DNA of 64,000 nucleotides from Verrucomicrobiota bacterium (lineage in GTDB: Bacteria; Verrucomicrobiota; Verrucomicrobiia; Opitutales; UBA953): contig VHCL01000001.1 of NCBI GenBank assembly GCA_016871725.1, forward strand, positions 1 through 64,000. Reading direction: 5' to 3'. Of this stretch, positions 9,711 through 34,389 are shown piece by piece. Under the pieces are notes generated by a model. It ran no database searches, was not told where the DNA came from, and saw only the letters and a program-made list of their open reading frames with translations. The first letter of the stretch is position 1. Each line of letters opens with the position of its first letter. Made by a program: the position numbers and the translations under genes.

Positions 9711-10104
9711 AGGGCGCGAGGGCCGGTGGGCGCGAGGGCACGAGCAAGAGGCCCGGAGGCTCAGAGGCTCGGTTGACCAGAGCGCGACGGAGCCGCGAGG
9801 GGGCAAGCTGGCACGGGGACACGGGGACATGGGGATGATGCAGCGCAAAGGTGCAACTGCGGCGGAGCCGCGTGCAAAAGTGCAAAGGTGGGAGACAAGA
9901 GCGCGAGGGGTGGCGTGGGCGGTCAGGAGCCTGGCCAGGATATGAATCTCACCCGGTGCCCGCACCGACGCCTGATAAGCCGAACCGGAGACCTGAGGGC
10001 CGAGACCTGGGGCCCGAAGATGATCCCACGTTTGCACCTTTGCACAGGCCGAAGGCCGGTTCGCACTTCTGCACTCAGGACCGCACGGGGTGCGGCCCCT
10101 ACCC
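9711..10104. repeat. Repeat-mosaic intergenic region 1 (between convergent gspM and gspF)
   Basis: This 394-base spacer has no credible gene. It is built from modules that recur elsewhere in the window: module A (9746-9782, GGCCCGGAGGCTC core), module B (9780-9803, a GCGCGnnGGAGCCGCGAGG hairpin) and module C (9801-9834, GGCACGGGGACACGGGGAC). Module D is present at 9843-9891, with GTGCAAA-type heptamers flanking the hairpin GCGGC-GGA-GCCGC at 9859-9871. An inverted D copy lies at 10030-10074 with hairpin GGCC-GAA-GGCC. Module G (10081-10103) is CCGCAC-GGG-GTGCGG followed by CCCCTACC. Module G ends directly at the gspF stop codon. Confidence 0.8.
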
Positions 10105-11337
10105 TCAGAAGCGGAAGCTGGAGCTGACCTCGAAGACGGCGGCGACGATCGCGAAGGCGATGAAGGCGACGAACGAGAAGGCGGCGACGAGGACCGAGGC
10201 GGAGATCGTCTGCGAGATCGTGCCGAGCCAGCGGTCGAGCTCGGCGCGGTAGGAGCGCGAGATGTCGCGGAGGCCGGGCGCCAGGTTGCCGGTCTGTTCG
10301 GCGACGGCGACGCGGTCGAGGAGCAGGCGCGGGAAATAGCCCGTGCGGGCGAGGGCCTTCGAGAGGCTGTCGCCTTCGAGCACGCGGTCGGTCGCCTCGC
10401 GGAGCTGCTGGCGGAGGGCGCGGTTCGGGGCGGTCTTCTCGGCGAGGCGGAGGGCCTCGGCGGTCGTGATGCCGTTCTCGAGGAGCACCGCGAGCGTGTG
10501 GCAGAAGTTGAGGACCGAGACGCGCATCACGAAGGAACCGGCGAGCGGCACCTTCAGGAGCAGGCCGTCGGAGGCCAGCCGGCCTTCCTCCGTCTTGCGC
10601 CAGCGGGCGACGCCGACGACCGTGAGCACCGCGAGCACCAGGAAGACCGGCCCGACGACGACGAAGACGTCGGCGAAGGTCATCAGCAGCTTCGTGGAGA
10701 GCGGCAGCTTGCCGCCGAGGGAGGTGAGGAGCGTCTGCAGGCGCGGCAGCAGGAAGAGCACGAAGAAGATCACCACGCCGACGGCGACCACGCAGATGAA
10801 GAGCGGGTAGGCCATCGCGCTGATGAGCTTGCGCTTGAATTCCTTCTGCTCCGTGAAGTGGGTGATCAGCCGCTCGAGGACGTCGCGGATGTTGCCGGTC
10901 GCCTCGCCGGCGGCGATGAGGTTGAGCGTCTGGCCGTCGAAGACCTGCGGGTAGGCGCCCATCGCGGCGGAGAGGCTCTGGCCTTCGCCGAGCTTGGCCC
11001 AGATCCCGGCGCAGAGCGCGCGGAGGCGGGACTTCTGGAGGCGGAGGGCGAGGAGGCGGAGCGATTCGCCGGCGGACATCCCCGAGCGGACCAGGTCGGC
11101 CATCGCCTCGAGGAACGGCAGGCACTCGGCCTCGGTCGGGAGGAGGTCCTTGTCGTCCGGACCGCCTTCGCGGGCGGACTCCTTGGCGCGGACGGCGGCG
11201 CCGGCCTCCTCGACCTTGAGCGGCTTGAGGCCGCGGGCCTGGAGCCGGCGGAGGGCGTCGCGGCGCGCGGGGGCCTCGAGGGTGCCTTCGGTCACGGCGC
11301 CGGCGGCGTCGCGCGCGGTGTAGTTGAAGACGGCCAT
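10105..11337 (-). CDS. gspF: Type II secretion inner-membrane protein GspF
   Basis: This 410-residue polytopic protein contains two T2SSF domains, each with the family pattern (LPFLEAMADLVRSGMSAGES at about 63-82, then FCHTLAVLLENGITTAEAL). It has three membrane segments, at about 170-190, 220-240 and the C-terminus. GspF is the inner-membrane platform that couples the GspE ATPase to pseudopilus assembly. The N-terminal YTARDAAGAVTEGTLEA stretch is also typical. It is the last gene of the minus-strand gspD-E-F operon, 7 nt after gspE. Length and start ATG are normal. Confidence 0.95.
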   Translation of the reverse strand: MAVFNYTARDAAGAVTEGTLEAPARRDALRRLQARGLKPLKVEEAGAAVRAKESAREGGPDDKDLLPTEAECLPFLEAMADLVRSGMSAGESLRLLALRLQKSRLRALCAGIWAKLGEGQSLSAAMGAYPQVFDGQTLNLIAAGEATGNIRDVLERLITHFTEQKEFKRKLISAMAYPLFICVVAVGVVIFFVLFLLPRLQTLLTSLGGKLPLSTKLLMTFADVFVVVGPVFLVLAVLTVVGVARWRKTEEGRLASDGLLLKVPLAGSFVMRVSVLNFCHTLAVLLENGITTAEALRLAEKTAPNRALRQQLREATDRVLEGDSLSKALARTGYFPRLLLDRVAVAEQTGNLAPGLRDISRSYRAELDRWLGTISQTISASVLVAAFSFVAFIAFAIVAAVFEVSSSFRF

Positions 11338-11344
11338 CGCGGCG

Positions 11345-13027
11345 TTACTCGTTCGAGCTCAGGTTGCGGATGAGCTCGTCGATGGTCGTGAGCCCGGCGG
11401 CGACCTTGAGCCAGCCCGCCTTGGCGAGGGGGCGCATGCCGAGGGCGATCGCCTTCTCCGTGAGCTCGCGGTTGGAGATGCGGGTGATGATGAGGTCGTG
11501 GAGCGGCTTCGGATGGAAGATCTCGAAGACCCCGACGCGGCCGCGGTAGCCGGTGCCGCGGCACTTGCGGCAGCCGACGGCCTCCTTGAGCGACGGCACG
11601 TCCTGCAGGTAGGACTCGTCCATGCCGAGGGTGGCGAGGGCCGGCACGAGCTTCGCGCGGTCGACGGGGACGGTCTTGGCGCAGTCGGGGCAGAGGCGGC
11701 GGACGAGGCGCTGGGCGATGACCAGCTCGACGGCGGAGCCGACGAGGAAGGGCTCGACGCCCATGTCGATGAGGCGCGTGATGGCGCCCGGGGCGTCGTT
11801 GGTGTGGAGGGTCGAGAAGACCAGGTGGCCCGTGAGGGAGGCGCGGATGGAGATCTCGGCCGTCTCGAGGTCGCGGATCTCGCCGACCATGATCACGTCG
11901 GGGTCCTGGCGCAGCGTGCTGCGGAGGGCGCCGGCGAAGGTCAGGCCGATCTCGGCGCGGGTCTGCACCTGGTTGGCGCCGGGCACCTCGTACTCGATCG
12001 GGTCTTCGATCGTCACGATGCGGATGTCGGGCGAGTTGATGGCCTGGAGGAAGGCGTTGAGCGTCGTCGACTTGCCGGAGCCCGTCGGGCCGGTCACCAG
12101 GATGATGCCGTGCGGGTAGTCGAGGACCTTGCGGACGGCGGCCTGCTCCTCGGCGTTCATGCCGATGCGGTCCATGTTGTAGGCCTCCTTGCGCTGGTTG
12201 AGGAGACGGAGCGAGACCGACTCCGCGTAGATCGTCGGGATGGTCGAGACGCGGATATCGAGCACGTTCTTGCCGTCGCGGAAGTTGATGCGGCCGTCCT
12301 GCGGGAGGCGGCGCTCGGAGATGTTGAGGCGCGCCATGATCTTCAGGCGCGAGATGATCGCGTCCTGGAAGCGGGCGAGGTTGTCGGGGAGCGGGATCGG
12401 GATGAGGATGCCGTCGACGCGGTAGCGGATGCGCAGGTTGTTCTCCTGCGGCTCGAAGTGGACGTCGGTCGCGCCTTCGGCGACGGCCTGCGTGAGGACC
12501 TCGGTGACGAAGCGGACGACGGCGGCGTCCTGGTCGGCCTCGTCGGACGCGGCGACCTCGGCCACGGGGAGGTCGTCGCCTTCGTCCTCGAGGCTGCCGG
12601 AACCCACGCCGTAGTTCTCGTTGATGAGGGCGGCGACGCGTTCGGGCGGGGCGAGGTACCACTGCGGGCGGCGGGCGGCGAAGGTCGCGACCCAGTCGGC
12701 CGTGTCGGTGTCGGGCGGGAGCGCGGTCACGAGGCGGAGGCGGCCCGCTTCGCCGCCGGGGAGGAGCGTCGGGACGACCTGCGCCTCGGAGGCGATGCGC
12801 GCCGGCAGGACCTTCATGCCGTCGGGATCGATGGCGGGTTCCTCGAGGACCTCGAGGCCCGTGAGGCGGGCGAGCTCGGCGAGGAGCGCGGCCTCGTCGA
12901 GGCCGAGGGCCTGGGCGAGGAACTTGAAGCGGGCCTCGCGCGGCGTCTCCGCGAACGTGGCGCGGGCCTCGTCGGTCAGGCGCTCGGCGAGGGCCGAGGG
13001 CAGTCCGTGCCGGTCGACGGTCAGCAT
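11345..13027 (-). CDS. gspE: Type II secretion ATPase GspE
   Basis: This 560-residue cytoplasmic ATPase powers pseudopilus extension. An N-terminal GspE/PilB domain (about 20-140) precedes the ATPase core. The core has Walker A GPTGSGKST (313-321), the Asp box EDPIEYEVPG (341-350), a Walker B-like DPDVIMVGEIRD (375-386) and the His box HLVFSTLHTND (401-411). A zinc site is formed by two CxxC pairs, C446/C449 and C486/C489, as in GspE and PilB. It lies between gspD and gspF with spacings of 1 nt and 7 nt, indicating one transcript. All catalytic elements are present. Confidence 0.96.
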   Translation of the reverse strand: MLTVDRHGLPSALAERLTDEARATFAETPREARFKFLAQALGLDEAALLAELARLTGLEVLEEPAIDPDGMKVLPARIASEAQVVPTLLPGGEAGRLRLVTALPPDTDTADWVATFAARRPQWYLAPPERVAALINENYGVGSGSLEDEGDDLPVAEVAASDEADQDAAVVRFVTEVLTQAVAEGATDVHFEPQENNLRIRYRVDGILIPIPLPDNLARFQDAIISRLKIMARLNISERRLPQDGRINFRDGKNVLDIRVSTIPTIYAESVSLRLLNQRKEAYNMDRIGMNAEEQAAVRKVLDYPHGIILVTGPTGSGKSTTLNAFLQAINSPDIRIVTIEDPIEYEVPGANQVQTRAEIGLTFAGALRSTLRQDPDVIMVGEIRDLETAEISIRASLTGHLVFSTLHTNDAPGAITRLIDMGVEPFLVGSAVELVIAQRLVRRLCPDCAKTVPVDRAKLVPALATLGMDESYLQDVPSLKEAVGCRKCRGTGYRGRVGVFEIFHPKPLHDLIITRISNRELTEKAIALGMRPLAKAGWLKVAAGLTTIDELIRNLSSNE

Positions 13028-13028
13028 G

Positions 13029-15161
13029 TCACTTCTGGGCCGGGGCGGCGGAGGCCTTGCCGGGGACGTTCTCGAGGGCCTTCTTGGCCTCGGGTCCGAG
13101 GGCGCTGGCGGTGGCGCGGCTGATGGCGTCGAGGTTGTCGACGGCCGAGCCGTTGAGCACGTAAGGGCGGAGGAAGATGATCAGCTCCTGCTTCTCCTCG
13201 AGGACGGTGGACGAACCCAGGAGGTCGCCGAGGAACGGGATGGGGCCGAGGCGGGAGGTGGACTGCGTCTCGATGGTGCGCTGCAGGCCGCCGAGGACGA
13301 CGATCTCGCCGCTCATCGCGCTCACGAAGGAGTCGGTCGTGCGGCGGCCGATGATCGGCTGGTCGTTGCCGTCGAGGCGCACGCTGCCGAGGATGTCCTC
13401 GACCGACTGGGAGACCTGGAGCTGCACGGCGCCGTCCTTGCCGATGAGCGGCAGGACCTTGAGCTGGATGCCGATGTCGCGCTGCGAGACCTGGGAGGTC
13501 ACCTGGCCCGTCTGCGGGGCGATGGTGGCGCCGGTGATGACGGGGCGGGATTCGCCGACGAAGATCGTGGCCTCCTTGTTATGGGTGGTCGTGACCGCGG
13601 GCACCGAGAGCACCTTGAGGTCGCTCTTGCGCGGCGTGGTGGTGAGGCCGATCGTGGCGCTCAGGTCGTTGGTCGCGGTGTTGAACGTGCCCTGCGAGGC
13701 GATGACCTGGGTGTTGTTCGGCCCCAGCGTGGTGTTGGTCGTGGCGGGGGCGCCGTTGACGCCGAAGCCGGCGCCGGTGCCGCCGATGCCGACGAGCTTG
13801 CCGTTGTTGACCGTCAGGCCGAGCGTATTGAAGCCGTTGGTCTCGTTGTCGGAGAGCTTGACCTCGACGATCACGACCTCGATGCGCACCTGCGGGAGGA
13901 CGATGTCGACCTTCTCGATGAGCTCGTGGAGCAGGCGGAGGTCGTCGTTGGTGCCGGAGACCACGACGGAGTTGCTGCGGACGTCGGGGAGGACGGTGAG
14001 GTTGCTGCTGAACTCGTCGGCGCCCATCTGGGAGGCGCCGGCGGCGGCGGCGGCCGTCGCGGCGGTCGTCGGGGTCGGCGTCGGGGCGCGGTTGAGGGTC
14101 GTGTTGCGGACGGAATTGCCGGCGCGGGCGGCGGCGGTCGTCTGGCCGGTGACGAGGGAGGTCACGAGCGTGGCGACCTGCTGGGCGTCGGCGTGGCGGA
14201 GGAAGATGACGTCCGTCTTCGTGTTCGGATTGGACTTCTGGTCGAGCGTCTCGATGAGCTTGTCGAAGAAGTCATGCTGGTCGGCCGAGCCCATGAGCAG
14301 GACCCGGTTGGTGCGCTCGTCGGCGAGGAAGGTCGTGCCGGTGCTGAGGCGGAACGGCGCGCCGCCGGAGACGGTGGCGGGCGAGCGGAGCATCGACGTC
14401 AGCTTGTTGACCATGTCGGTCGCCATCGCGTTCTTGAGCGGGTAGCTCTTGGTGACGACGAGGTCGAGCTGGGGCCGGTCGATCTGGGCGGTCAGCGTCT
14501 CGATCTTCTGGAGGTTCGAGACCGAGTCCGTGATCATCAGCGCGTTGTTGCGGCCGAAGTAGACGGGGGGAGAAGCCAGCGTGGTGTTGAGGCTCGAGGC
14601 GATCTGGGCGACGAGCTCCTGGGCGTTGGCGTGCTTGAGCGTGAAGATCTTGGTGGCGATGCGGCCGCTCGGGGGCAGCGCGAGGACGGAACCCGTGATG
14701 AGCTGGGGCGACTCGGCCTTGGCGACGAGGTTGGGGACGACCTTGAGGAACTTGTCGCCCTGCTGGATGACGGCGATGCCGTTGAGATTGAGCAGCGTCT
14801 CGAGGGCGAGGAGGGCTTCGTCGCGGGTGATCGAGGCCGGCAGCGAGAGCGTGTACACGCTGGCGGGGAGGGCTTGCGGACGGAGGATGGACTTGCCGGT
14901 CCAGCGCTGCATCAGGTCGAGGACCTGGGCGACGGTCTCATCCCGCAGGATGACCGGACCGATCTGGTCGGAACCGCTGAGGCCGGGAAGCGGGACGGCG
15001 CCGGCGACGCCAGGGACCACCGTCGGCGCGGCGGGGGCCGCGGGGGCGGTCGGCGCGGCTTGCCCGAAGCCCACGAGGGGGGCGGACGCGGCGGCCAGCA
15101 ACAGGCAGAAAATGGGCACAGCGGCCCGCCGTTGACGAGGGTGGAAAGTAGGGCTGGTCAC
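13029..15161 (-). CDS. gspD: Type II secretion secretin GspD
   Basis: This 710-residue outer-membrane secretin forms the exit channel. A signal peptide (about 1-33) is followed by N-domain repeats (for example IFTLKHANAQELVAQI and VIFLRHADAQQVATLV) separated by Ala/Thr-rich linkers. The C-terminal secretin domain carries VVVLGGLQR-type and LGPIPFLGDLLGSS motifs near 625-655. The start is GTG 15161, since no in-frame ATG lies nearer with a better signal sequence. Only 1 nt separates its stop from gspE. No pilotin gene is visible. Confidence 0.93.
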   Translation of the reverse strand: MTSPTFHPRQRRAAVPIFCLLLAAASAPLVGFGQAAPTAPAAPAAPTVVPGVAGAVPLPGLSGSDQIGPVILRDETVAQVLDLMQRWTGKSILRPQALPASVYTLSLPASITRDEALLALETLLNLNGIAVIQQGDKFLKVVPNLVAKAESPQLITGSVLALPPSGRIATKIFTLKHANAQELVAQIASSLNTTLASPPVYFGRNNALMITDSVSNLQKIETLTAQIDRPQLDLVVTKSYPLKNAMATDMVNKLTSMLRSPATVSGGAPFRLSTGTTFLADERTNRVLLMGSADQHDFFDKLIETLDQKSNPNTKTDVIFLRHADAQQVATLVTSLVTGQTTAAARAGNSVRNTTLNRAPTPTPTTAATAAAAAGASQMGADEFSSNLTVLPDVRSNSVVVSGTNDDLRLLHELIEKVDIVLPQVRIEVVIVEVKLSDNETNGFNTLGLTVNNGKLVGIGGTGAGFGVNGAPATTNTTLGPNNTQVIASQGTFNTATNDLSATIGLTTTPRKSDLKVLSVPAVTTTHNKEATIFVGESRPVITGATIAPQTGQVTSQVSQRDIGIQLKVLPLIGKDGAVQLQVSQSVEDILGSVRLDGNDQPIIGRRTTDSFVSAMSGEIVVLGGLQRTIETQSTSRLGPIPFLGDLLGSSTVLEEKQELIIFLRPYVLNGSAVDNLDAISRATASALGPEAKKALENVPGKASAAPAQK

Positions 15162-15352
15162 GGGTGTAAGAAGGGGTACGGCTTGATAACACCCATTAGG
15201 AGGAATAGTTCGACGAAAAATCGGCTTTTGAGAGGTTTATTCGAAGGCTAAGCCTACCAGCGCCAGCGAGATACCCTACGAAGGTGAACATATTTTCACC
15301 TTTTGCTTGCCGACCCGCGTCAGAAAAGCCAAAACTTGGTCGTTAAGCCCCT
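15162..15352. promoter_or_regulatory. Divergent gspD / hypothetical gene spacer
   Basis: This 191-base AT-richer spacer lies between gspD (minus) and the gene at 15353 (plus), so it should contain both promoters. At 15281-15302 it has a perfect 8-bp inverted repeat, AAGGTGAA-CATATT-TTCACCTT, followed by TTGC. On the plus strand it lies about 50 nt upstream of the start codon, and on the minus strand about 120 nt upstream of gspD. It could be an operator for a dimeric regulator or a transcript-end hairpin. I see no convincing -35/-10 pair. Confidence 0.45.
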
Positions 15353-15892
15353 ATGCGTGAAGATTTCCCCGACTGGCTGGGCAAGCCACCTCTCCGCGGA
15401 ACCGACCAGTGGGAAGCCTGGCTGACCAAGTGGCGCCGCTATGCCAAGGTCGAGCTGCGGGACGCGGCGGCCGACGACCCGGAATATGATTTCGGCCTGC
15501 TGACACCCGAGGAGCGCTGGCGCGTGGCCTTGGCTCTCCAGATCAAAGCCCAGATCGAGGCCGGCCGGCAGAACGTCCCCGTGGCCGTGTCCTTCGTCGG
15601 CGGCCGGAAAGTCAGCGACCTCGAACATGCCGGCGTCGTCGCCTGGCAGGTGGGGCGCTCGGTCGTCGCGCCGATCCCCGACGAAGCCTTCACGGCCGCG
15701 CTCGAGTGGAGCAACGCGCGGGAGAACCCGCGGCGTCGCCGGATCTCGCACGCCATCCGCTACGGCTTCCTCGCGGGGCTGGGCGGCGAGGCCGCCGCGC
15801 CGGCATGGTCGTCGCCGGACTACGTCGCGGCCTACGAAGCCGCGTGGGAGCTCGGCAACGCGCAGGCCATCGAGACGGACCCGCGGGGATAG
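15353..15892 (+). CDS. Conserved-looking hypothetical protein
   Basis: I do not recognise this 179-residue protein. It has no signal peptide and no membrane segment, is rich in Trp and charged residues (for example WLTKWRRYAKVELRD), and looks like a compact soluble cytoplasmic domain. The codon use matches the neighbouring genes and a start ATG follows the divergent spacer, which supports a real gene. It lies 46 nt upstream of rmuC on the same strand and may be cotranscribed with it. A hairpin closed by GAAAGCC and GGCTTTC (about 15898-15930) sits between them. No function is proposed. Confidence 0.7.
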   Translation: MREDFPDWLGKPPLRGTDQWEAWLTKWRRYAKVELRDAAADDPEYDFGLLTPEERWRVALALQIKAQIEAGRQNVPVAVSFVGGRKVSDLEHAGVVAWQVGRSVVAPIPDEAFTAALEWSNARENPRRRRISHAIRYGFLAGLGGEAAAPAWSSPDYVAAYEAAWELGNAQAIETDPRG

Positions 15893-15938
15893 GTTGCGGA
15901 AAGCCCGCCCGCGGGCAGAGTGGCTTTCTCTAAGACCC

Positions 15939-17252
15939 ATGGACACCTTCGTCATCTGCACCGTCGTGATCGTCAGCGCGGCGGCTCTCGGCTTCCTGCT
16001 ACGCGGCTCCGCGCGCGGAGGTTCGGTGACTCCCGAAGAACAGGCCAGGCTGGCCGAACTCGTAGCCCGGACCGTCCGCGACGACATCGCCAAAGAGACG
16101 GAACGACTGCGGAACGCCCAAGCGCAGCAAGCGAATGACATCCGCAAGGAACTGACCGACGGACTGCGCGAGTCGCGGCTGGAAATCGTCGCCTCCCTGT
16201 CCGAATCGCGCCGGGAGTCCGCCAAGTCCGTGGCCGACTTCTCGACGGAGAACGCCAGGAAGACCGAACTCCTGCAGGCCAACATGCAGAAGGCGCTCGA
16301 GGCCATGCGGGCCGACAACGAGAAGCGCCTGAACGAGATGCGCGAGGTCGTCGGCGAAAAACTGCAGAAGACCTTGGAGGCACGGCTGGGCGAAAGCTTC
16401 AAGCAGGTCTCCGAGCGACTCGAAGCGGTCAGCAAAGGCCTCGGCGAAGTGCAGCAGATCACTTCCAACATCAACGACCTCAAGCGCGTCATGGGCAATG
16501 TGAAGACCCGTGGCGTCTGGGGTGAGACTTTCCTGGAAAGCCTGCTGTCCGACTCGCTGGTGCCCGAGAAGCAGTTCGTTAAGAACTTCCGGCCCAAGGA
16601 ACGCAGCGCTGAAACCGTGGAGTTCGCCATCATCCTCCCGGGCAACGATGAAGGGCCGGTCTACCTGCCCGTCGATTCGAAGTTCCCGCGCGAAGATTAC
16701 GACCGAATCGTGGCCGCGGCGGAGGTAGGCGACACCGCCGCCCTGCTCCAGGCCCAGAAGGACCTCGCCGCCACCGTCATCAGCTTCGCGGCCGACATCA
16801 CGAAATACATCAATCCCCCGCGGACGACGGATTTCGCGATCCTCTTCCTGCCGACCGAAGGCCTCTACGCCGAAGTCCTGCGCTTCCCGGGCATCGAGAA
16901 AGCCCTGAAGGAGAAACGCGTCGTGGTGGCCGGGCCCTCGACGATGATGGCGCTGGTCAACTCGCTGCGCGTGGGCTTCCAGACCTTGGTCGTCCAGAAG
17001 AAGTCCGCGGAAATCGCCAAGCTTCTTGGCGCCGTGAAGAAGGACTTCGGCAACTTCGGGGACCTGCTCGAGAAGATCAACAAGAAGCTCGAGGAGGCCA
17101 GTTCCGTGGTGACGGACGCGACGGATCGCCACCGGAAGATCGCCAGGAAGATGACGAAGGTCGCGGAGTTGCCGGACGCGGAGACCCGCCTGCTGCTCAA
17201 CCTGGATTCCCCGGAAGACGCCGAAGACGAGGAGTCGCCCAAGGCGCCCTGA
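15939..17252 (+). CDS. rmuC: DNA recombination protein RmuC
   Basis: This 437-residue protein has an N-terminal membrane anchor (residues 3-22), a long coiled coil (about 45-170) and the RmuC domain (about 170-390). The domain carries the family stretches VKTRGVWGE, LPVDSKFPREDY, INPPRTTDFAILFLPTEGLY and VVAGPSTMMALVNSLRVGF. RmuC proteins limit DNA inversion at short inverted repeats in E. coli, and a nuclease fold has been proposed. ATG 15939 was chosen because it gives the usual N-terminal anchor; the open frame extends further upstream through the previous gene. The gene ends just before a tRNA gene on the other strand. Confidence 0.93.
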   Translation: MDTFVICTVVIVSAAALGFLLRGSARGGSVTPEEQARLAELVARTVRDDIAKETERLRNAQAQQANDIRKELTDGLRESRLEIVASLSESRRESAKSVADFSTENARKTELLQANMQKALEAMRADNEKRLNEMREVVGEKLQKTLEARLGESFKQVSERLEAVSKGLGEVQQITSNINDLKRVMGNVKTRGVWGETFLESLLSDSLVPEKQFVKNFRPKERSAETVEFAIILPGNDEGPVYLPVDSKFPREDYDRIVAAAEVGDTAALLQAQKDLAATVISFAADITKYINPPRTTDFAILFLPTEGLYAEVLRFPGIEKALKEKRVVVAGPSTMMALVNSLRVGFQTLVVQKKSAEIAKLLGAVKKDFGNFGDLLEKINKKLEEASSVVTDATDRHRKIARKMTKVAELPDAETRLLLNLDSPEDAEDEESPKAP

Positions 17253-17265
17253 CCGGGAATCCTGC

Positions 17266-17341
17266 TGGTGGAGCCGATGAGGTTCGAACTCACGGCCTCG
17301 TCATTGCGAACGACGCGCTCTACCAACTGAGCTACGGCCCC
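17266..17341 (-). tRNA. tRNA-Ala (anticodon CGC)
   Basis: The 76-nt minus-strand sequence folds as a complete cloverleaf: acceptor GGGGCCG/CGGCTCC, D stem GCTC/GAGC, anticodon stem CGTCG/TGACG with loop TTCGCAA, and T arm with GTTCGAACC. The anticodon is CGC, which reads GCG. The acceptor stem carries the G3:U70 wobble pair that marks alanine tRNAs, confirming the identity. The 3' CCA is encoded. It lies between rmuC and the SlyD-like gene, transcribed against both. A CGC alanine isoacceptor fits a GC-rich genome. Confidence 0.96.
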
Positions 17342-17450
17342 AAACAGCAGGAAGGTAAGGCAAGCCGTCCCGGCGGGGGCGGTCAAGGTTTAGATGCCTG
17401 TCGCCTTGCCTCGGCCCGGAATGGCCGTAGATTCGACCTTCCTGAACACC

Positions 17451-18071
17451 ATGCGCGTAGCCAAAGAAACCGTCGTCGCCATCGAATACACCCTGAAGGA
17501 CGACCAGGGGAACATCATCGACGCCTCCGGCGAACGCGGTCCGATGGAGTACCTCCACGGCGCGCAGAACATCATCCCCGGCCTCGAGCAGGGCATCGAG
17601 GGCCTCGTCGCCGGCGACACGAAGAACGTCCTGGTCCCGCCGCAGCTCGGCTACGGCGAATACAGCGAGAAGCTGATCCAGCAGGTGCCCCTCTCCGCCT
17701 TCGGCGCCAACACGCCCCAGGTCGGCATGCGTTTCCACGCCGAGACCAACCTCGGCATGCGCGTCCTCACCATCAAGAAGATCGAGGGCGAGGAAGTCAC
17801 CCTCGACGGCAACCATGAGCTCGCCGGCAAGACCCTGCATTTCGACATCAAGGTCGTCGCCGTCCGCGCGGCCGAGCCGACCGAACTCGCCCACGGCCAT
17901 CCGCACCAGTCGGGCGGCTGCTGCGGCGGCGGCGGCTGCGGTTCCGGCGAAGGCTCGGGCGGCGGCTGCTGCTCGTCCGAAGAGGGCGCCGAAGGCGGTT
18001 GCTGCTCCGCCGAAGAACCCGCCGCCCAGAAGCAGGGTGGTTGCGGCTCCGGCGGCTGCGGCTGCTCGTAA
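17451..18071 (+). CDS. slyD: SlyD-like FKBP peptidyl-prolyl isomerase with Cys-rich metal tail
   Basis: This 206-residue protein starts MRVAKETVVAIEYTL at ATG 17451; an upstream extension to 17394 is unlikely. Residues 1-70 and 125-150 form the FKBP domain, with the SlyD insert-in-flap domain between them (YLHGAQNIIPGLEQGIEGL, PPQLGYGEY). The tail from about residue 150 starts with HGHPH and is almost entirely Gly, Ser, Glu and Cys, with ten Cys, six of them as three CC pairs. E. coli SlyD uses a similar His/Cys tail to bind nickel for hydrogenase maturation. Here no hydrogenase gene is nearby, so metal storage, buffering or chaperoning is an inference. A strong terminator follows. Confidence 0.92.
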   Translation: MRVAKETVVAIEYTLKDDQGNIIDASGERGPMEYLHGAQNIIPGLEQGIEGLVAGDTKNVLVPPQLGYGEYSEKLIQQVPLSAFGANTPQVGMRFHAETNLGMRVLTIKKIEGEEVTLDGNHELAGKTLHFDIKVVAVRAAEPTELAHGHPHQSGGCCGGGGCGSGEGSGGGCCSSEEGAEGGCCSAEEPAAQKQGGCGSGGCGCS

Positions 18072-18094
18072 GCCCTCCCGGTCAGCACAAGACA

Positions 18095-18119
18095 GGCCGC
18101 CCGCCCGGGCGGCCTTTTT
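18095..18119 (+). terminator. Rho-independent terminator after slyD
   Basis: An 8-bp perfect GC stem (GGCCGCCC / GGGCGGCC, loop GCCC) is followed by TTTTT, 23 nt after the slyD stop codon. It is a canonical intrinsic terminator on the plus strand. Confidence 0.9.
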
Positions 18120-18199
18120 CATGTCGGAAAGAGAGCGCCCGTCGGCGGACGCCGCCAAGAAGCCGTTGTCTTCCGCGCGCCGAAGCCTAGTAACGGAAC

Positions 18200-18604
18200 A
18201 TGCGCTCCCTCCTGGCCTTGCTCCTCATCGCCACCGTCGCTCACGCGGTCCCCAGCCAACGGGACGCCCTGCTCACCGCGAAGCGGGCGGCTCAGGTCGA
18301 ATACACCGCCGCGCAACGCGCCAAGGACAAGGAAAAGTTCCTGGCGGCGGCGAGCCGTTTCCAGGCCGTGGGACGGCAGGTCGCGGAAGCGAACCAGAAC
18401 TTGGTCCGGAAGATCGAAGGCAACGGGCTGCGCAAGACGGAACAAGACCACGTGAAGCCGCTCAAGGCTTCGGTCGTCGCCTTAGGTAATTTCGTCCTGC
18501 CCACCGAATTCACCCCGGAAACCATCCGCACGGTCGACCGCCATATCCGCGAAATCGACCAGGCCATCGAGGCGCACCACGCCGCGAGCCTGAACATCCG
18601 CTGA
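18200..18604 (+). CDS. Small secreted helical hypothetical protein
   Basis: This 134-residue protein has a clear signal peptide (MRSLLALLLIATVAHA, residues 1-16) and a mature part rich in Ala, Lys, Glu and Gln. The mature part is predicted to be mostly alpha-helical and is probably periplasmic. I recognise no domain. Codon use resembles its neighbours. Its stop is followed at once by repeat-mosaic region 2, and the terminator of slyD separates it from the upstream gene. The secreted protein at 57864 is similar in style, but I see no clear sequence relationship. Confidence 0.65.
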   Translation: MRSLLALLLIATVAHAVPSQRDALLTAKRAAQVEYTAAQRAKDKEKFLAAASRFQAVGRQVAEANQNLVRKIEGNGLRKTEQDHVKPLKASVVALGNFVLPTEFTPETIRTVDRHIREIDQAIEAHHAASLNIR

Positions 18605-18926
18605 GCGCGCCAGCGCGAGGGGACAAGCTGGCACGGTGACATGTGGGCAAGGGGGGATGCACCTCCAGTTGATCGGTGGATCGGTTGGCCAGAGCGCGGC
18701 GGAGCCGCGAGGGGGCGCGTGGGCACGGTGACACGGGGACAAGGAGCACAAACACAAGAGGCCCGGTGGCTCGGCGGACCAGATTCGTGGGCGGGAGGGC
18801 GATGCAGGTGCAAAGGTGCAAATCGGAGCGAAGCTCCTGTGCAAAAGCGCAAAGGTGGGCGCGCTAGCGCGAGGGTCTGGGGTTGCCCCGGCCGGAAGGC
18901 CACGCAGGCTGTGGTCACCCCCGCGC
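18605..18926. repeat. Repeat-mosaic intergenic region 2
   Basis: This 322-base spacer has no credible gene and shares modules with regions 1, 3 and 4. Module B-like hairpins lie at 18603-18621 and 18691-18715 (GCGGC-GGA-GCCGC). Module C copies lie at 18620-18657 and 18713-18744. Module E (TTGATCGG-type repeats) is at 18666-18690 and module A at 18756-18782. Module D is at 18808-18857, with the hairpin GGAGC-GAA-GCTCC (18825-18837) between GTGCAAA-type heptamers. A further small GCGCGCTAGCGCG palindrome follows. It precedes the sugar transporter, whose promoter must therefore lie in or after this region. Confidence 0.8.
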
Positions 18927-20249
18927 ATGCGTCCCGATTCCGTCCATGCCCGTGACCTGACGCCCGGCCAGACGCGCGGCGCGCTCGCGATCGTCGCGGT
19001 CCTGTTCTTCATCTTCGGCTTCGTCTCGTGGGCGAACGCGATCCTCATCCCCTACTTCAAGATCGCCTGCGAACTGACGCACTTCGAAGCCTATCTCGTC
19101 ACGTTCGCCTTCTACATCTCCTACCTCCTGTTCTCCTGGCCGGCGGCGGGCCTGCTCCGGCGGACCGGCTTCAAACGCGGGATGATGTCCGGCTTCTGGA
19201 CGATGGCGGCCGGGGCGCTGCTCTTCATCCCGGCGGCCTACGCGCGCGCCTACCCGGTCTTCCTCGCCGGCCTGTTCACGCTCGGGGCCGGGCTCGCGAT
19301 CCTGCAGACCGCGGCGAACCCTTACGTCACCGTGCTCGGTCCGCGGACGAGCGCGGCGCGCCGCTTCAGCCTGATGGGCATCGGCAACAAAGGCGCCGGC
19401 ATCCTGGCGCCGATCCTCTTCGCCGCCGTCGTGCTACGGGTGACCGACACCGAACTGTTCGCCGCCTTGCCGGCGATGGCGCCGGCCGCGAAGGCGGCCG
19501 CGCTCGATGAACTGGTCCGGCGGGTGATCCCGCCTTACGCCGCGGTCGCCGCCTTGCTCGGCCTGCTCGGGCTGCTGGTCCGCTGGTCGCCGTTGCCGGA
19601 GATCGACACCGACCACGAAGACGGCACGGTCGCCGAAGCCAACGCCGGGAAGACCAGCGTGTTCCAGTTCCCGCAGCTCGTGCTGGGAGCGATCGGCATC
19701 TTCCTGCACGTCGGTACGCAGACCGTGGCCGTCGACACGATCATCGGTTACGCGGACACCATGGGCATCCCGCTCGCGGCGGCGAAGATCCTGCCCGGGT
19801 GCGTGCTCGGGGCGATGATCGTGGGCTACCTCCTCGGCCTGGCGTTCATCCCGCGATACGTCTCTCAGGTGACGGCCCTGCGCGCGTGCACCGTGCTCGG
19901 CGTCGTCGGCACGCTCGGCGTGCTCTTCGCGCCGGGCCGGCTGACTTTCCTCGGGGTGACGGCCGACGTCTCGCTCTGGTGCCTCGCCGTGCTCGGCCTG
20001 TCGAACTCACTGACCTGGGCGGGCATCTGGCCGCTCGCGCTGGACGGACTCGGCCGGTTCACCAAGTCCGGCGCCTCGCTGATGATCATGGGCCTGTGCG
20101 GCAACGCGCTCATCCCGCTCGCTTACGGCTGGCTGGCGGACGATCACGGCGCCCGCGCAGGCTACTGGGTGCTCCTTCCCTGCTACCTTTACCTGACCTA
20201 TTACGCGGTGAGTGGGCACAGGAAGAGAAGTTGGTCGGAGCGCGCGTAA
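18927..20249 (+). CDS. FucP/GluP-family sugar:proton symporter (MFS)
   Basis: This 440-residue protein has about 12 membrane helices and belongs to the FucP/GluP/NagP branch of the major facilitator superfamily. Diagnostic stretches are FFIFGFVSWANAILIPYFK (first helix), ILQTAANPYVTVLG, the NKGAGILAPI segment, and FLHVGTQTVAVDTIIGYA in helix 7. Members import fucose, glucose/galactose or N-acetylglucosamine with protons, and the substrate cannot be told from sequence alone. ATG 18927 starts just before the first conserved helix; the longer open frame runs back into repeat region 2 and was rejected. No catabolic genes lie beside it. Confidence 0.9.
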   Translation: MRPDSVHARDLTPGQTRGALAIVAVLFFIFGFVSWANAILIPYFKIACELTHFEAYLVTFAFYISYLLFSWPAAGLLRRTGFKRGMMSGFWTMAAGALLFIPAAYARAYPVFLAGLFTLGAGLAILQTAANPYVTVLGPRTSAARRFSLMGIGNKGAGILAPILFAAVVLRVTDTELFAALPAMAPAAKAAALDELVRRVIPPYAAVAALLGLLGLLVRWSPLPEIDTDHEDGTVAEANAGKTSVFQFPQLVLGAIGIFLHVGTQTVAVDTIIGYADTMGIPLAAAKILPGCVLGAMIVGYLLGLAFIPRYVSQVTALRACTVLGVVGTLGVLFAPGRLTFLGVTADVSLWCLAVLGLSNSLTWAGIWPLALDGLGRFTKSGASLMIMGLCGNALIPLAYGWLADDHGARAGYWVLLPCYLYLTYYAVSGHRKRSWSERA

Positions 20250-20795
20250 GCGCGCGAGGGGGGCGCATCGCGAGGACTCGAGGGCCGGAGGGCAGGCGAG
20301 AGGCAATGTTAGTTGATCAGTTGATCGGTTGGCCGGTGGGCCAGAGGGACAAACGAGAGGCCCGGAGGCTCAGAGGCTCGGTTGATCAGAGAGATACAGG
20401 CCTCAAGGGGGAACCGGAGACAGGATGATTGGCTGAGGTGAGACATTTCAGGTCTCGGGTCTCGGCCATCGGGAGCCAGGTTCAGGGGTTCAGGTTCGGG
20501 CACAGGTTCAGGGCCTGATTTATGGCAGGGGCGCGCGCCACGCGCGCCCGCGGTGACCAGGTCGCATGGCGCAGACGGGGTTAGATACGTTCAGAATTCC
20601 GAACGAAGTCAGACCCCATCTGCGACCGCGGTCGGCTCGGAGAGCCGTGCCTACCCGAGGCACGCTAGGGCAGCACGCGGTGCTGCCCCTACCTAGAGGC
20701 AGCTAGGTCGTGACGCGGTCCCGACCCTACCCATGCATTGCAGCGGCTCAATTCAGTCCTCCACGCAGTCCTCTACGCCGCCCTCCATTCAGCGC
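20250..20795. repeat. Repeat-mosaic intergenic region 3 (between convergent sugar transporter and OsmC)
   Basis: At 546 bases this is the longest gene-free stretch. It contains module E (20311-20348, tandem AGTTGATC), module A (20354-20391), and CAGGTTCAGG-type direct repeats (about 20477-20514). A 9-bp hairpin with loop CCA lies at 20529-20549. Module F (20572-20622) has outer arms CAGACGGGGT / ACCCCATCTG around an imperfect palindrome GTTCAGAATTCCGAAC. Module G (20668-20693) has a 9-bp hairpin with loop GCG followed by CTACC. Finally there are five 12- to 13-nt direct repeats of CAGTCCTCCACG type (20741-20801) that run into the OsmC stop codon. I found no coding potential. Confidence 0.8.
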
Positions 20796-23315: not shown

Positions 23316-23391
23316 TGGTCGGGCAGACAGGACTTGAACCTGCAACACCCTGCTCCCAAAGCAGGGACTCTACCAATTGAGATACTGCCCG
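23316..23391 (-). tRNA. tRNA-Pro (anticodon TGG)
   Basis: The 76-nt minus-strand gene has acceptor CGGGCAG/CTGCCCG, D arm with AATTGGTAGAG, anticodon stem CCTGC/GCAGG with loop TTTGGGA (anticodon TGG, reading CCA/CCN), and T arm GTTCAAGTC. The discriminator is A and the CCA end is encoded. It lies between convergent-facing purM and the LysM gene, transcribed against both. Confidence 0.96.
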
Positions 23392-34272: not shown

Positions 34273-34389
34273 GCGCGGCGGAACCGCGAGGAAACAATCG
34301 AGGGGCGGTGCAAAGGTGAAGGATGATCAGCCTTGGTCGATGCAGCCATCCGTCATCGACCCAGCCATCGACTCCGTCATCTACGTCGC
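34273..34389. repeat. Repeat-mosaic intergenic region 4 (between convergent aguA and feo operon)
   Basis: This 117-base spacer contains a module B copy (about 34271-34291, GCGCGGCGGAACCGCGAGG, hairpin GCGG-CGGAA-CCGC) and a partial module D (34307-34319, GGTGCAAAGGTG). It ends with a 19- to 20-nt direct repeat starting CAGCCATC at 34343 and 34362. The arrangement matches the longer mosaics but appears truncated. There is no coding potential. Confidence 0.7.

Follow-up and report, generated by a model that had tools for sequence, protein, structure and literature searches.

Introduction

What are the short repeat modules that fill several gaps between the genes of a freshwater Opitutae genome, and what spreads them? 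The window, by which we mean the whole 64,000-nucleotide stretch that was analysed (C1:1-64000, from a 2.37-Mb draft genome that is 96% complete), holds three long gene-free gaps, here called regions 1 to 3, and a shorter fourth. The original prediction was that all four are built from the same modules, lettered A to E and G, and that these could be a family resembling repetitive extragenic palindromes (REPs) or bacterial interspersed mosaic elements (BIMEs), spread by an unseen REP-associated tyrosine transposase (RAYT), or else sites for transcription termination or the nucleoid. Short heptamer repeats in the gaps between bacterial genes have been on record for decades, with no owner assigned to them.

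We consider it likely that modules A, C, D and E, together with several others, are the inward-facing terminal inverted repeats (TIRs) of small mobile elements, and that module G consists of GTAG-tagged REPs moved by RAYTs. Such an element would in all likelihood comprise a gene of about 120–150 aa for a four-helix-bundle protein (PF05635, the 23S rRNA intervening-sequence protein, IVP) placed between inward arms that are mostly degenerate iterons of 7–8 nt. We refer to these below as IVP elements.

Results

Recurrence of the modules

An independent gene caller reproduced the limits of regions 1 to 3 exactly (9711-10104, 18605-18926 and 20250-20795), and the modules recur across the genome and its genus, which bears out the claim that the three long gaps share them. 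A search of the genome and its relatives showed the modules to be dispersed and mostly non-coding. Counting itself, region 1 matches its own genome in at least 62 places at E<=1e-3, a lower bound because 40 of 106 candidate places were scored. When 21 module patterns were run over 332 kb of the genome, 394 matches fell in non-coding DNA and 22 in coding DNA, although the latter is eight times larger (295,215 versus 37,141 bp). The most frequent eleven-base words come from the D core; they appear in as many as 30 of 125 gaps and from 0 to 2 times in 434 kb of coding DNA, where some lower-ranked words reach 7 matches. In a scan of GTDB genomes, the matches listed for the D pattern (at least 111 stretches) came from bins of Opitutae and Verrucomicrobia, including UBA953, UBA957 and UBA7397; BS6 and BS8 are two of these bins. 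Going by the bin names, most are taken to be freshwater bins, and BS6 and BS8 to be PacBio bins from Lake Biwa. Eighty of the stretches, chosen by D pattern, were used for module counts, layout and arm pairing (the pattern loci). Contigs labelled Polynucleobacter meluiroseus HRS-ES1-bin-412 (L088, L091, L138, L154) also carry this pattern, otherwise seen in Opitutae, and the bin is probably mislabelled.

Association of IVP genes with inverted arms

PF05635 genes were found in 44 of the 55 genomes of the genus (43 over the cut-off), with 138 matches in all. Of these, 130 were fetched, the eight left out being mostly partial; several D-type loci were fetched because D lay nearby or because they were likely members of that clade. 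Most of these IVP genes lie between inward copies of one module type, the types being GGGGACA, GAGTAT/GAGTAC, GCGGTTA, GAGGACTG, GGAGGCTC, TTGATCGG, D, GGGGTA and others. When scored without use of the module names, inverted arms of at least 15 flanked 79 of 87 IVP genes, versus 2 of 96 other genes from the same loci, and a further 34 of 37 IVP genes brought the total to 113 of 124; an earlier control on other loci had given 6 of 187. The best period was 7 or 8 in 63 of the 79 arms. The window itself contains no IVP gene, and its genome has five, all above the TIGR02436 cut-off. Four have both arms (of types C, D, E and GAGGACTG), while the fifth, C37:122, has a right GCGGTTA arm only, its left arm being lost at a contig end.

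Arm type and IVP clade agree closely, with nearly one type per clade. On a tree of 86 proteins, of which 78 could be labelled, 16 arm types required 16 changes, the minimum being 15, whereas shuffled labels required a mean of 56.4 and none of 200 shuffles was as low. The tree was of a quick kind with few columns and 8 unlabelled rows, the rules for arm types were written after the arms had been seen, and near-copies inflate the shuffled values. The proteins are under purifying selection (median dN/dS 0.05–0.15 in 7 clades), and the solved structures related to one E2-type IVP are 2gsc (E 7e-11) and, with a weak match, 2rld (E 0.027).

A retroelement, or the Avd protein of a diversity-generating retroelement, was considered and rejected: reverse transcription is unlikely because the reverse transcriptase family PF00078 occurs in 1 of the 55 genomes (G014:C112:2869-3561), and one of the five IVPs of the window's genome has a weak Avd match of 21.6 bits against a cut-off of 80. 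A tblastn search with one IVP as query gave no hit that would indicate carriage by phages. Rfam gave no match on six IVP loci, and PADLOC nothing useful.

Gene-less copies

Many copies of the modules lack a gene. One or more matches to module D were found in 48 of the 55 genomes; the copy number per genome runs from 0 to 63, and G048, which is 99% complete, gave no copy. In a sample of 273 genomes of the order it was detected in 16 of the same genus and weakly in one other, and in none of the 15 sister-genus genomes listed. Copies of D are more numerous where a D-type IVP was detected (median 31 in 14 genomes versus 5 in 41; one-sided p=1.3e-4). Paired changes in the small D hairpin were seen across 30 sequences selected for variety. 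The identity of its flanks (0.861 within and 0.847 between genomes) indicates one consensus across species and hardly any species-specific drift, unlike GAGTAY, which has genome-specific variants (GAGTAC in BS8, L202-L220, and GAGTAT in the genome of the window).

A second family, E2, links gene-less copies to gene-bearing ones. Among 17 copies, the centre is 34–40 nt long in 9, a second palindrome (E4) occupies it in 5, a REP and a second E2 in 1, and an open reading frame (ORF) in 2, one of which also holds a D copy. The ORF is a PF05635 gene, and the 9 copies with short centres have both arms of the gene-bearing L191 and L179, with a likeness, judged by eye, in the next bases inward. Gene-less copies behave like miniature inverted-repeat transposable elements and nest inside one another.

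Distribution beyond the genus and filled and empty sites

The same design is seen in weaker form across Verrucomicrobiota and on plasmids of cyanobacteria, Gemmatimonadota and Azospirillum. PF05635 is present in 96 of 223 genomes of the order and 181 of 240 of the phylum. At the best-scoring loci, not a random sample, inverted arms of at least 15 occurred at 17 of 30 in other genera of the order (controls 4 of 27) and at 11 of 26 in the class and phylum (controls 1 of 29), and their best period was 7 or 8 in 17 of 17 and 10 of 11 arms, respectively. Among plasmids, 34 records had an IVP match, 28 being cyanobacterial by name, and we sampled 16 of them (the top 19 by rank minus H6, H10 and H17). 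Arms reached 12.5 in 11 of the 16 and 15 in 10, against 1% of shuffles at 12.5; in some misses (e.g. L414) the arm overlaps, by eye, the end of an annotated gene. Plasmid arm units include TAGGGAG, AGGTGAC and TTAGCTT, and arms were also present in Gemmatirosa and Azospirillum. On the cyanobacterial plasmids L407, L410 and L418 the IVP genes sit inside runs of CRISPR-Cas genes (cas6/cas4 twice, cas10/cmr3).

Related plasmids also provided filled and empty versions of the same site: between cas10 and cmr3 in Picosynechococcus 7003 versus 7002 (32 nt replaced), at ribonucleotide reductase genes in Nostoc edaphicum versus Calothrix (13 nt), and at an ORF pair in Nostoc C052 versus ATCC 53789 (16 nt) and versus C057 (2 nt). 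A comparison of Calothrix 7716 with NIES-4105 was less clean, with 162 nt unmatched. Close to the site that is filled in Nostoc C052, the C057 plasmid (L427, about 320-463) has an inverted pair resembling a TCAGGAG heptamer arm, in a gap without an annotated IVP.

RAYT, REP and Y1 transposase genes

Module G, a hairpin followed by CTACC, is a GTAG REP with RAYT partners, which is a known kind of repeat. The GTAG-tagged imperfect palindromes of the window are GGTAGGG hairpins of two types, REPa and REPd. Our search for RAYTs found fragments near two contig ends of the genome, one (L042) with REPa adjoining, and relatives in 28 of the 55 genomes of the genus; the short RAYT scored 77.5 bits with NCBIfam REP_Tyr_transpos, just below the cut-off of 80. 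A REPa, b, c or e pattern lay within 450 nt at 36 of 41 RAYT loci (none at L225, L227, L230, L231 and L232), and REP type goes by RAYT group as judged by eye, without a RAYT tree. No RAYT gene flanked by the REPd type was seen. Opitutus terrae has been reported to be rich in GTAG repeats (PMC3733652). The genome also has two long Y1_Tnp genes (L044 3683-4615; L045 3215-4072) with adjoining GGGGTCAG and GGGGTCAGG palindromes. Similar palindromes occur in gaps without a gene (e.g. L027 and window position 20577).

The predicted family of BIME-like repeats spread by an unseen element was right in kind, and a RAYT is the right mover for G; for A, C, D and E the predicted enzyme was wrong, as the partners are IVP genes and the GTAG tag is absent. 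We consider it unlikely that every module belongs to a REP/BIME family moved in trans by RAYTs or by the Y1 transposases that accompany TIRs (TIRYTs), with the IVP genes as passengers. RAYT relatives and Y1_Tnp hits are each present in 28 of the 55 genomes, RAYTs are flanked by GTAG REPs, and the density of D is greater in genomes with a Y1_Tnp hit (median 13.2 versus 2.2 copies per Mb, p=3e-4). However, the match of arm types to IVP clades speaks against such mobilisation of all modules, and the regular flanks of RAYTs are GTAG REPs and not the other modules, on which ground a RAYT as mover of everything was rejected. The three RAYTs that have D within 90 nt all sit, by eye, at a single orthologous position, where D is absent from a fourth genome. 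RAYTs also seem unneeded for D: with no Y1 or RAYT hit, genome G012 (85% complete) contains 30 copies of D together with six IVP genes.

Layout, nesting and turnover

Layout was scored over loci of the window's genome, syntenic loci and the pattern loci. Adjacent copies of one family faced inward 160 times, the same way 64 times and outward 5 times, and pairs of different families in one gap were nested in 44 cases, side by side in 7 and crossing in 3. Both arms of one family shared a gap more often than by chance in the genome's own gaps (38 versus 24.5) and in the pattern loci (101 versus 59.9). There is also a loose order from edge to centre, with 79% of 1358 ordered pairs fitting one linear order (59% in shuffles, maximum 62%). 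The shuffled look of the modules arises because gene-less copies nest inside one another. Of the genome's 60 gaps of at least 200 nt, 54 show a stronger G-over-C skew in their left half than in their right, regardless of gene directions; this polarity is real, but it results from the arms facing inward, and base skew as a cause was rejected. In a same-strand run of genes (L036 5600-20000 and L037; C1:129-145 kb), gaps of about 300–460 bp are mostly bounded by D, and two kinds of inner sequence reappear in highly similar form, as judged by eye; whole composites may therefore be copied as units.

Comparison with ten congeners at the window's own loci showed that orthologous gaps use the same vocabulary in other combinations. 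In the window, regions 1, 3 and 4 do lie between convergent genes, and region 2 lies between tandem genes. As a general rule, convergent placement finds no support in the BS8 gaps with modules (5 of 54 convergent, 6 of 52 divergent and 9 of 195 tandem), nor does a terminator rule, and module orientation is independent of the direction of flanking genes.

These observations make it improbable that the modules serve the host as regulatory or structural sites (for termination, the nucleoid or RNA processing) to which IVPs bind as resident regulators. The single D consensus across species, the paired hairpin changes and the purifying selection on IVP would suit such a role, but the number of D copies varies between 0 and 63 in a single genus, a nearly complete genome having given none, orthologous gaps differ, and placement ignores gene orientation. 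Several relatives without modules in gap 2 have, by eye, a terminator-like hairpin and T run there instead. The proposed role in transcription termination or the nucleoid gained no supporting result. An origin of iterons and arms by replication slippage and template switching alone, with IVP genes present by chance, would account for the 7–8 nt period of most arms and their variable unit number, yet is very improbable given the match between IVPs and arms, the filled and empty sites, and the finding that other genes do not have arms as often as IVP genes.

The gaps of the window

Region 1 (9711-10104, between convergent genes) is a composite with forward arms in its left half and reversed arms in its right half. 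On the plus strand it carries a GAGGGC/CGAGG iteron arm (9718-9744) of the type found at IVP loci L342 and L344, followed by a module A GGAGGCTC arm (9750-9764), with IVP partners in other genomes (L284, L287), a module B hairpin with CGCGAGGGG (9789-9802), for which no IVP partner was found, a module C GGGGACA arm (9815-9829), with its partner in the same genome (C54, L283), and the left copy of module D, a heptamer-flanked hairpin (9843-9886) whose partner is also in the same genome (C123, L293). The inverted right copy of D (10031-10074, minus strand) completes a gene-less D pair, and a REPa-type GTAG hairpin end (10090-10103, minus strand) corresponds to a RAYT fragment with REPa on contig C100 of the same genome.

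Region 2 (18605-18926, between tandem genes) carries, all on the plus strand, a module E TTGATCGG arm (18668-18688) with an IVP partner in the same genome (C124, L294) and pattern matches to B (18701-18714), the C GGGGACA arm (18727-18741), the A GGAGGCTC arm (18760-18774) and a single copy of D (18808-18853). About 222 bp of this region (18654-18875, limits by eye) are missing from the orthologous gaps of congeners L073 and L074.

Region 3 (20250-20795), between convergent genes for a major facilitator superfamily (MFS) protein and OsmC, is again composite, and the orthologous gaps of nine congeners hold other module combinations. Its plus-strand features are pattern matches to a GAGGGCCGGAGGGC iteron block (20280-20293), an E TTGATCGG arm (20312-20332) and an A GGAGGCTC arm (20359-20373), the left arm of an E2 element (GGAGACC and ATTGGCTG; 20412-20438), which has gene-bearing counterparts at L191 and L179, and a GGTCTCG arm (20450-20466) without an IVP partner. 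A palindrome of GGGGTYAGA type (20577-20618, limits by eye) resembles those beside the long, TIRYT-like Y1_Tnp genes of the genome. On the minus strand follow a REPa GTAG hairpin end that matches module G (20680-20693), a REPd GTAG hairpin (20707-20731) and a reversed GAGGACTG arm (20748-20773), the IVP partner of which is in the same genome (C37:4145, L292).

The membership of region 4 (34273-34389) is weak, as this short gap matched no module pattern, and a B-like hairpin, one heptamer pair and a reversed GATGACTG-type block were discerned by eye. At gathering scores, an Rfam scan of the window gave two tRNAs only (minus strand, 17269-17341 and 23319-23391), with no CRISPR or other known structured RNA.

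Discussion

We interpret IVP elements as a dispersed, gap-dwelling relative of the intervening sequences (IVSs) of rRNA, to which the remaining modules largely belong. The gaps would be graveyards and nurseries of two small kinds of mobile DNA, GTAG REPs and IVP elements. Gene-less copies keep both arms, as in the D pairs and E2, or one arm; new elements would tend to insert inside resident ones, producing nested inverted repeats, and truncation together with gain or loss of iterons would shuffle what remains. The elements may move as DNA: IVP would recognise the iterons of its own element, for example in single-stranded or hairpin DNA, hairpins would steer insertion, and host functions would perform the cutting and joining. 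This scheme would fit the position of rRNA IVSs in place of small helix loops and the heptamers found before the Coxiella ORF.

Several observations weigh against this interpretation. No movement of the elements was observed, and we know of no catalytic motif in IVP. The five comparisons of filled and empty sites showed no clear target duplication. Arms weaken outside the genus (17/30 in the order, 11/26 in the class and phylum), where some controls pass as well, and 5 of the 16 plasmid IVPs fail at 12.5. In the small syntenic set, arm pairing was no more than chance (5 versus 5.2). At least 15 D copies occur in 17 of the 41 genomes without a detected D-type IVP, which indicates that this partner is dispensable at present, although draft genomes are incomplete, and D copies also track the presence of Y1_Tnp. 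GAGTAY arms are shared by two IVP clades. In the loci examined, no IVP partner was found for GTGACGG, GGTCTCG, REPd or B, and GGTGGCG matches adjoin GCGGTTA-type IVPs, probably as cross-matches.

The prediction that no module matches an rRNA part is literally correct, but the protein family behind the modules is known from 23S rRNA IVSs. According to PMC4990558, the IVS of Coxiella burnetii has an S23p/IVP ORF within 23S rRNA, complementary ends that form a long stem, and tandem heptamers of variable unit number just before the ORF; rRNA IVSs replace small loops at helices 9, 25 and 45, and have been called selfish, with mobility suspected. An IVP-family ORF (PF05635), here in the window's own genome and genus, and complementary ends are thus common to both. 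The described IVSs lie in 23S rRNA, where an IVS occupies a helix and is excised by RNase III, whereas the copies in the window lie between protein genes. Here a genome holds many types, each IVP clade has close to a single arm type, and gene-less copies are numerous.

REP/REPIN systems with RAYTs, as treated in PMC3733652, are similar in that a gene with cognate flanking repeats is accompanied by many gene-less copies in gaps, and G is a member of this group. The partner of A, C, D and E differs in being a four-helix bundle and not a Y1 HUH enzyme, and the repeats are mostly iterons without a GTAG tag. The same source describes TIRtrons and TIRYTs with GGGGWSAS TIRs, which the palindromes beside the two long Y1_Tnp genes resemble; one such palindrome was noted in the window, and A, C, D and E do not derive from them.

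Other intergenic repeats offer looser parallels. The intergenic palindromes described from organelles are comparable; those of Volvox and the repetitive hairpin elements (RHE) of sponges are reportedly regarded as selfish, and to our knowledge have no coding partner, unlike modules with IVP genes. The short tandemly repeated repetitive (STRR) sequences of cyanobacteria are short intergenic heptamer arrays of unexplained origin. Similar in form are the TAACTGA heptamer repeats of Beggiatoaceae, described in PMC4679880, in the main text of which a term search found no 'intervening', 'S23' or 'four helix'. What differs here is that similar arrays bracket IVP genes on cyanobacterial plasmids. A paper on an Opitutae symbiont (PMC5698493), in the part available, had no bearing on the modules.

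We are somewhat inclined to a broader reading, in which IVP elements are a widespread and unrecognised class of bacterial mobile DNA, each with a four-helix-bundle protein matched to inverted heptamer or octamer arms of its own; the class would lack a transposase or reverse transcriptase of its own and would insert into gaps and the centres of hairpins. The IVSs of rRNA would then be the branch that settled there, and orphan heptamer arrays, cyanobacterial STRRs for example, would for the most part be ends that such elements have shed. In a limited and weak survey of the open-licence PMC literature, we recognised no paper linking IVP genes to intergenic iteron arms. The correspondence between protein clade and repeat type ties together two things that stood apart, the common but unexplained IVP genes and the ownerless heptamer repeats. 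The spread of rRNA IVSs becomes testable in culturable cyanobacteria and, if our interpretation is true, much of the 'junk' in the gaps of lake Verrucomicrobiota would be explained.

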